DNA of 38,510 nucleotides from assembly GCA_025454475.1 (NCBI GenBank), contig JALOOJ010000012.1:1-38510 (forward strand), given 5' to 3'. Positions 23,661-25,396 of the stretch are shown piece by piece. Each line of letters starts with the position of its first letter. Position 1 is the first letter of the stretch. A program made the translations under genes and the position numbers. The stretch is from Anaerolineae bacterium (GTDB taxonomy: Bacteria > Chloroflexota > Anaerolineae > B4-G1 > SLSP01). Below the pieces are notes generated by a model, which did not search any database, was not told the DNA's origin, and worked only from the letters and a program-made list of their open reading frames with translations.

Positions 23661-24011
23661 TCAGTCCCCTTGCACGATGTGTACGCTGATACTCACAGGA
23701 CTCTCGGCTCCATCTACGTAACTCTCAAGAACGTGACACCGGCACGTGCCCAGGAGATCGCCGCGGCCTAGCTCGTGGACCTGCATGACGGCCCAGTACC
23801 CAGGCCCCAGCAGATCCCGCGCAAGGGCAAGGAGCCTCAAGCTCAGTGCTGACAGCTCTGTTCCCGGGGCGACATAGAACCACGACAGATGGTCCTCGTC
23901 GATGGCGACATGCTCGTGCTGTCGGATGTCATCGCCAGATCCGACGCCACGTTGTACCACGTGACAGATCCGGTCAGGTCTTTCGTCTGCGTATTCCCAT
24001 TTGATGATCAT
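23661..24011 (-). CDS. Conserved-looking hypothetical protein (116 aa), translationally coupled to the GNAT gene
   Basis: MIIKWEYADERPDRICHVVQRGVGSGDDIRQHEHVAIDEDHLSWFYVAPG...; ATGA-type overlap with the upstream GNAT stop at 24008. Confidence 0.65.
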   Translation of the reverse strand: MIIKWEYADERPDRICHVVQRGVGSGDDIRQHEHVAIDEDHLSWFYVAPGTELSALSLRLLALARDLLGPGYWAVMQVHELGRGDLLGTCRCHVLESYVDGAESPVSISVHIVQGD

Positions 24012-25084
24012 GTCGATTCCGTTTCCTCGTCGGGTAGCAGAGCTTCCAGGGGTTTCCGATAGCACGCCTGGCGGTTCACTACCTCGTAGCCCATACTCTC
24101 GTAGAGCTGCAATGCGCCGTTGGGGTTGGTGGCATCCACGCCCAACGCGGTCTCCGTCATCCCTAGATCCCGGTGCAACCGAAGGCTGCGCGCGATCAGC
24201 GCTCGTGCCAGGCCGCGTCTGCGCCATGGCCGTCGAACGCAGATCGTCTCTGTGTACCCCCGTTGCCGGTGGTATTCCTCGTTCTCCGCGTGGTCGACGA
24301 AGTTCAGCACCATACCAGCGATTTCGTCGCCTTCCCATGCCACCTGCCAGTAGTCCGGCACGAAGGTGGGGCTCTCCTGCCAAGAGGCAAGATGAGTGTC
24401 TGCCCAGTCTTCCTCCGAGAATCCCCAGTGATCCCTGAACGCCTCGCGTGCAGCTGCCCAGATACGCAGGTAGTGCTCAGGCTGGACCGGCCTCACTTCC
24501 AGCGCCTCGGGCATCTGTGCCTCCGGAAGGTCACCAAGCATCGGGCGGACCATCTCAAAGCCATAGCGCGCCGGTACGTATCCTTCGCTCTCAAGCAGGC
24601 CCACCCAGTCGCTCTCGCGCTCCGAGGCCCAGCACTCGAAGGCCTTTGGGGCGTCGCCGGGATGTCCTGTCGCGATTGCCCGCAACCGTGACTCATTGTG
24701 CCGCAGCATAGCCCGTCGGATGCCAGTGCCACGCCACTCGGGCACAAGGAAGGCAAAATGGCCGTAGGCGTAGGGTCCATTGACCTCCTGTCGCCACCAG
24801 ACGCGCCCGTACCCGATGACCTTGCTGGCGACCTCGGCAAGCACTACGTCCGTGGCCGTATCTGAGTTCACCAAGTGTTGATAGTTGCGCTTGAGATCCT
24901 CCAGCGATTCGGTGTGATCGGCACCATCCGCTACTTTGCTTCTTTCGATAACCTCCAGCAACGAAGGGAAGTCACGCTCTTCGTCGAACCCGCGGAACTC
25001 CAGTCCGCGCACTCCAGGCACCGCGGCCAGAAACACGAACTCCGGCCGAACTGACGAACCTATAGACTCACCATTGCTTGCCAT
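24008..25084 (-). CDS. Tandem GNAT-family N-acetyltransferase
   Basis: Start MASNGESIGSS. First half VPEWRGTGIRRAMLRHNE, second half VRRPWRRRGLARALIARSLRLHRDLGMTETALGVDATNPNGALQLYESMGYEVV (acetyl-CoA-binding motif R-R-x-G-x-A). Confidence 0.9.
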   Translation of the reverse strand: MASNGESIGSSVRPEFVFLAAVPGVRGLEFRGFDEERDFPSLLEVIERSKVADGADHTESLEDLKRNYQHLVNSDTATDVVLAEVASKVIGYGRVWWRQEVNGPYAYGHFAFLVPEWRGTGIRRAMLRHNESRLRAIATGHPGDAPKAFECWASERESDWVGLLESEGYVPARYGFEMVRPMLGDLPEAQMPEALEVRPVQPEHYLRIWAAAREAFRDHWGFSEEDWADTHLASWQESPTFVPDYWQVAWEGDEIAGMVLNFVDHAENEEYHRQRGYTETICVRRPWRRRGLARALIARSLRLHRDLGMTETALGVDATNPNGALQLYESMGYEVVNRQACYRKPLEALLPDEETEST

Positions 25085-25132: not shown

Positions 25133-25157
25133 CAGGCCGTGGGTCACCCACGGCCTG
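25133..25157 (-). promoter_or_regulatory. Second leader hairpin upstream of the GNAT gene
   Basis: Inverted repeat CAGGCCGTGGGT-C-ACCCACGGCCTG (12-bp arms). Confidence 0.5.
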
Positions 25158-25177
25158 GCCAAGGACTCAGAGACACA

Positions 25178-25361
25178 AGAAAAAACGGCCGTGGGGATCT
25201 CAGTCGCCACGGCCGTTTCTGTCCTGTTAGACTATTCTAACCTTTTCCGAGGCGCACTGCGACAGGGCATCCCTGCCAGACCATCCTCTGGCATTGCCCG
25301 TAATGTGCTGTACATTGACTCCTGGACCATGTGCGCCCTGCCTCGTTCGCTTTGGAATACG
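25178..25361 (-). ncRNA. Candidate structured RNA (about 185 nt) or 5' leader with intrinsic terminator
   Basis: Minus strand: promoter 25396-25368; closing stem GGCGCAC/GTGCGCC (25337-25331/25257-25251) enclosing hairpins AATGT/ACATT and a nested GGGCA..TGCCAGA/TCTGGCA..TGCCC; hairpin GTTAGA/TCTAAC; terminator AAACGGCCGTGG/CCACGGCCGTTT with T-run. Confidence 0.5.
25183..25218 (-). terminator. Intrinsic terminator
   Basis: Minus strand AAACGGCCGTGG-N12-CCACGGCCGTTTTTTCTTGT. Confidence 0.7.
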
Positions 25362-25367
25362 TCAGAT

Positions 25368-25396
25368 ATTGTAAATGTGTTTGGCATTCTTGTCAA
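25368..25396 (-). promoter_or_regulatory. Near-consensus sigma70-type promoter, minus strand
   Basis: Minus strand TTGACA-N17-TACAAT. Confidence 0.7.

Follow-up and report, generated by a model that had tools for sequence, protein, structure and literature searches.

A probable ribosome-controlled transcription attenuator before a tandem GNAT gene, and its relatives across the Chloroflexota

What is the RNA that precedes a tandem GNAT acetyltransferase gene in an Anaerolineae bacterium, and what does it do? The window analysed here, a 38,510-nucleotide stretch of this genome, carries the gene on the minus strand behind a structured leader. A sequence-only reading of the DNA had left two options, a small RNA of about 185 nt or a cis-regulatory leader with premature termination. 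The comparisons below support a structured leader that acts in cis, and we conclude that it is probably a ribosome-controlled transcription attenuator built around a 32-codon upstream open reading frame (uORF).

The elements of the leader are collected in Table 1. The near-consensus promoter proposed earlier (25396-25368) is present and is the sole promoter match in the scanned 600-base region, where shuffles would give 0.2; promoters of like type and position precede most homologous loci. Folding of the leader RNA beats 200 of 200 dinucleotide shuffles (z = -4.5). The GC-rich closing stem of the sequence-only reading, GGCGCAC (inside 25338-25331) with GTGCGCC (25257-25251) on the minus strand, is real, and equals the pairing of segments 1 and 2 (1:2), yet it is just one state of a switch. 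Both inner hairpins were also recovered, with paired changes in relatives: TGCCAGA/TCTGGCA of the nested hairpin becomes TGTCAGA/TCTGACA in L025, and the hairpin at the stop codon becomes GTTGAC/GTCAAC in L005 and GTGAC/GTCAC in L009. Over all loci, the mid-uORF and stop-codon hairpins are barely above shuffles, and we do not regard them as general features.

The terminator with its T-run (25217-25184) was as first described, and the further hairpin before the GNAT gene is there too; overlooked was that this hairpin, too, is a terminator, its GGCCGTGG arms being shared with the first. The GGCCGTGG terminator pattern has a single occurrence in the 4.8-Mb genome, at this locus, ruling it out as a generic genomic terminator. 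Against Rfam, the window scored below the gathering threshold of every family, and relaxing the cut-off to E <= 10 added nothing beyond chance matches; the sequence-only reading had likewise been unable to match the RNA to riboswitch, T-box, SRP or tmRNA classes.

Table 1. Features of the leader and of the genes that it precedes, in window coordinates
Feature	Positions	Strand	Sequence or product	Remarks
Promoter, sigma-70-type	25368..25396	minus	TTGACA-N17-TACAAT	11/12 match
Segment 1	25331..25338	minus	GGGCGCAC	between uORF Shine-Dalgarno (SD) sequence and start codon; pairs with segment 2
uORF (leader ORF)	25232..25330	minus	MVQESMYSTLRAMPEDGLAGMPCRSAPRKRLE, then stop; 32 codons	ATG 25330, stop 25234-25232
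Nested hairpin within uORF	25265..25299	minus		apex of 1:2 structure; from fold
Segment 2	25251..25264	minus	TGTCGCAGTGCGCC	switch strand at uORF end; most conserved uORF part
Hairpin with uORF stop codon	25226..25241	minus	GTTAGA/TCTAAC	inside 2:3 antiterminator loop
Segment 3	25198..25208	minus	GGCGACTGAGA	upper 5' arm and loop of terminator 1; from covariation and nascent-RNA fold
Terminator 1 (segments 3:4)	25178..25217	minus	GGCCGTGG...CCACGGCC plus T-run	intrinsic terminator
Terminator 2	25133..25157	minus	CAGGCCGTGGG-TGA-CCCACGGCCTG	arms same as terminator 1
Tandem GNAT acetyltransferase	24008..25084	minus	358 aa	ATG 25084; Pfam Acetyltransf_1, 2.6e-18
Small ORF	23661..24011	minus	116 aa	ATGA overlap with GNAT stop; from sequence

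The nearest solved relatives of the tandem GNAT are PDB 7q3a and 3tt2. Its similarity to mycothiol synthase (MshD) is weak and far under the cut-off. The GNAT gene and the 116-aa ORF probably form one co-regulated operon, and a GC-rich terminator lies 3' of the small ORF, near 23650-23610.

Leaders of this build are widespread. A DNA search found eight homologues in close relatives. Apart from one locus that is cut by a contig end, each has the promoter, the uORF, both terminators and, slightly altered, the end motif TGTCGCAGTGCGCC. With a covariance model built from the final 143 leader positions (R1), matches at E <= 0.01 were obtained in 119 of the 396 genomes of the class; these E-values are approximate, and the lowest-scoring hits could be no more than twin terminators. 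Ninety loci were read; terminator 1 was recognised by pattern in 89, and among the 81 non-redundant loci terminator 2 was recognised in 77. The homologous loci examined have a uORF at the same leader position too; it is of comparable length and comes with an SD and a start codon. The broader model used for a phylum-wide search (R2) matched in 84 of 400 Chloroflexota genomes, including classes outside the Anaerolineae; in two genomes from other phyla the best match had only E = 0.27. A degenerate-pattern search of contigs yielded one true locus, and its hits in a cyanobacterium (L011) and in Verrucomicrobiales (L013) were discarded as chance coding matches.

Comparison of these loci supports two alternative pairings of segment 2. 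In the first, segment 2 (at the uORF end, UGUCGCAGUGCGCC) pairs with the sequence surrounding the uORF start codon. At least six Watson-Crick pairs to segment 2 near the uORF start are found in 38 of 79 loci, versus 4.8 +/- 2.4 in shuffles, and permutation favours a locus's own partner (z = -7.8); the mid-uORF and the 5' leader, taken as control regions, show no own-partner preference for segment 2. The complement itself varies, from GGGCGCAC-AUG in the window to AUG-CGCACU (L027, L036) and GCACUG-UG (L020). Universal conservation of the closing stem as a sequence is ruled out, GGCGCAC being absent from L002; it is the pairing of start region with uORF end that is kept, with other sequences, in many loci. 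Pairing statistics and fold agree on an anti-antiterminator that overlaps the uORF start.

In the second pairing (2:3), the partner of segment 2 is the loop of terminator 1 together with its 5' arm, and both sides covary. Double changes include CGTAG with CTACG (L041, L099), GGAG with CTCC (L040, L071), TCGCACTGC with GCAGTGCGA (L054) and GGAGTTTGCC with GGCAAACTCC (L073). Against shuffled partners z is -8.6, compared with 0.2 for segment 2 and the terminator 2 arm as a control. When partners were swapped between nearest relatives, the own partner was better in 26 cases and the swapped one in 8 (p = 2e-4), versus 13 and 22 in the control; this is the safer figure because permutation ignores ancestry. 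At one position whose register was fixed without using the tested letter, Watson-Crick pairs occur in 30 of 44 loci, versus 15.5 by permutation (0/20,000), with three pair types (C-G, U-A and G-C). The gene is thus preceded by an intrinsic terminator and, as a pairing, by a covariation-backed antiterminator that overlaps it; formation of 2:3 would be expected to exclude the terminator stem.

Exchange between the arms of the two terminators is possible because those of terminator 2 equal those of terminator 1. The likeness (4:5) reaches z = -10.4 by simple permutation. In the nearest-relative swap the score is 18 versus 18, and since nearest relatives favour no own partner, arm exchange remains unproven.

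The genes behind the leader point to its likely input. They fall into a tandem GNAT cluster (23 loci), a large cluster of ABC ATPases (41 loci; DrrA-like, ABC-F and exporters), HAD-like proteins (7; named from sequence, the fragments tested giving no family match), single GNATs (5) and ABC-2 permeases (3), with MFS proteins and others besides; drug-type ABC exporters, an RlmB/TsnR-like methylase and RsgA are also among them. Four further leaders lie in the window's own genome. One precedes an ABC-F gene (L107), and two are single-terminator leaders directly before an ABC exporter (L153; G000 C197, 48305-48409, minus) and an RlmB/TsnR-like 23S rRNA methylase (L154; G000 C34, 15344-15463, minus). 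The fourth (L152; G000 C331, 11268-11406, minus) has the same build, and its uORF, MSVLNLQVNNQNDNPSVRLWEGRG, is rich in Asn and Asp (NNQNDN) and lies before the aspartyl-tRNA synthetase gene aspS; it is likely to be an amino-acid attenuator, judging by these codons. In other classes, twin-terminator leaders with a uORF stand before the gene of the 30S assembly GTPase RsgA (L139, L140, L143, L149).

Leaders of the same build also precede leuA in large genomes of another class (L142, L144, L146, L156), and there the uORFs are Leu-rich. Segment 2 of these leaders is GUCGCCCA, with UGGGCGAC as partner, and double changes give GUCGCUCA/UGAGCGAC in L144 and GGUCGUCCA/UGGACGACC in L156. A codon run of the amino-acid-attenuator kind is thus present in the four leuA leaders and in L152, and absent from the window uORF. 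Regulatory codons matched to the downstream gene are the classic mark of ribosome-stall attenuation. Because Leu-rich and Asn/Asp-rich uORFs precede leuA and aspS, we take ribosome stalling to be the likely input. These product-matched codons, placed just before segment 2, provide the strongest hint that a stall upstream of segment 2 would turn the gene on.

Predicted folds of the window RNA are consistent with such a response. For nascent RNA extending up to the terminator loop, the model gives 11.1 pairs of 1:2 and 0.1 of 2:3 without a ribosome, and a predicted shift to 0 and 8.3 pairs when the uORF start is covered. With a ribosome at the stop codon, 2:3 is not blocked in the model (8.0 pairs); the fold does not support a ribosome parked there as the OFF state of the window leader. 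Averaged over 76 loci, 2:3 comprises 6.8 pairs when the ribosome is absent; covering the start raises this mean to 9.1, and covering the stop lowers it to 2.6. In the full transcript, equilibrium folding favours terminator 1 whatever the ribosome state, so the switch must be kinetic, decided as RNA polymerase passes.

The mechanism that we propose is as follows. By default, segment 1 would pair with segment 2, both terminators would form and the GNAT gene would be silent; a ribosome travelling over the uORF end would likewise mask segment 2. A ribosome held on the uORF start or early codons, as might happen with a drug against initiation or early elongation, would cover segment 1. Segment 2, now free, could capture segment 3 on its emergence from RNA polymerase, while segment 4 is still to be transcribed, and thereby prevent terminator 1. 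Early stalling would thus be the trigger that switches the gene on, and translation inhibitors may be the natural signal; we infer that there is also a way of overcoming terminator 2.

Could the uORF peptide rather than the RNA be what is selected? The C-terminal RSAP might stall the ribosome as in ErmCL or TnaC, with conservation of the RNA secondary. In most in-frame loci the uORF does read P-[CYFS]-R-S-A-P and stops a few codons further on, and changes in the Arg codon are often synonymous. However, segment 2 is in frame (RSAP or similar) in 52 of the 68 classified loci, and in the other 16 those nucleotides fall in a different frame, the uORF ending in SLS and a stop or continuing as TLSQ.AHLPV, so that no conserved peptide in one reading frame runs through the family. 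Since segment 2 is kept even there, selection acts on the RNA and not on the peptide alone; moreover, its changes are matched in the untranslated terminator loop. We therefore consider an arrest-peptide attenuator quite improbable, although the peptide possibly contributes at in-frame loci. The sequence-only reading had set conservation of the 32-aa frame against a structured RNA: the uORF does recur, but the RNA segment is kept out of frame as well, and its partners covary. Another reading accepts 2:3 and reverses its sense: a loop-strand pseudoknot would stabilise terminator 1 or set its timing, 2:3 would be the OFF state and the uORF would act only by removing segment 2. The loop of terminator 1 makes up most of segment 3, hence the stem and 2:3 could coexist, and equilibrium favours terminator 1. 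Yet 2:3 often takes in part of the terminator stem's 5' arm, and the leuA and aspS versions are sensible only if stalling upstream of segment 2 means ON, which leaves the pseudoknot unlikely.

The remaining readings do without a ribosome switch. A free small RNA that ran for about 185 nt as far as terminator 1 would fit the leader's own promoter and strong terminator, and terminated leader must in any case build up as a short RNA. Nevertheless, almost every homologous locus has a gene directly downstream of the leader in the same orientation, and the leader has a uORF and a second terminator. Because it is sense-linked to genes of several unrelated families, it does not behave as an independent gene untied to the downstream ORF, and the earlier suggestion of a free-standing small RNA was not borne out; we hold it to be very improbable. 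Least credible is a ligand-binding riboswitch. The leader is structured and has a terminator, but Rfam gives no match, there is no conserved aptamer-like core beyond the switch strands, and the unrelated downstream genes have a translation-stress theme as their sole common point.

Taking the attenuator as the preferred reading, its distribution raises the possibility, which we advance tentatively and as somewhat less than an even prospect, of a phylum-wide, protein-free translation-stress regulon, in which one RNA cassette before many unrelated Chloroflexota genes reads stalled ribosomes in place of a WhiB7-like regulator. If so, the cassette would consist of the uORF end strand and twin GGCCGTGG terminators, its targets would span ribosome protection, drug export, acetylation, rRNA methylation and RsgA, and other regulatory codons would serve before leuA and aspS. 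For the Chloroflexota, a large phylum of which most members are uncultured, it would provide a recognisable attenuator signature. Since target genes are marked by the cassette, one can predict which of the uncharacterised GNAT, HAD, MFS and ABC genes respond to translation inhibitors; such predictions can point to intrinsic resistance functions. Covariation also renders the trp-like logic testable with a simple reporter.

How does the leader compare with known systems? In the WhiB7 system of Actinomycetota, a leader uORF attenuates a single transcription factor that fans out to intrinsic resistance genes. A single translation-stress input and many intrinsic resistance genes are common to both, whereas in the Chloroflexota the attenuator itself is repeated before each gene. 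The classical trp, leu and his leader-peptide attenuators use the same 1:2, 2:3, 3:4 logic, and the Leu-rich and Asn/Asp-rich relatives fit this pattern well. The window leader differs from them in that its uORF has no regulatory codon run and segment 1 falls on the uORF start region. In open-access texts we found no description of a ribosome-sensing attenuator in Chloroflexota.

Closer parallels come from Bacillus subtilis. In the vmlR leader, anti-antiterminator, antiterminator and terminator logic has been shown by experiment (PMC9226507). There too, the uORF start lies inside the anti-antiterminator, a stall frees the antiterminator strand, an intrinsic terminator follows and the target is an ABC-F gene, a kind also found behind the Chloroflexota leader; vmlR differs in having a 3-codon uORF, one terminator and one gene in Bacilli (PMC9226507). 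In the Chloroflexota leader, in contrast, the uORF is mostly 17-40 codons long and its end serves as the switch strand; there are two similar terminators and many kinds of gene, in a different phylum. The same logic has been proposed for bmrBCD, which controls an ABC exporter and is induced by ribosome-targeting drugs; it likewise combines a leader ORF with a predicted anti-antiterminator, antiterminator and terminator, although its authors leave the role of the anti-antiterminator unclear, and its single terminator lies within the leader ORF (PMC4191407). The proposed attenuator is of a known kind, while the family, its breadth and the details of its design appear to be new.
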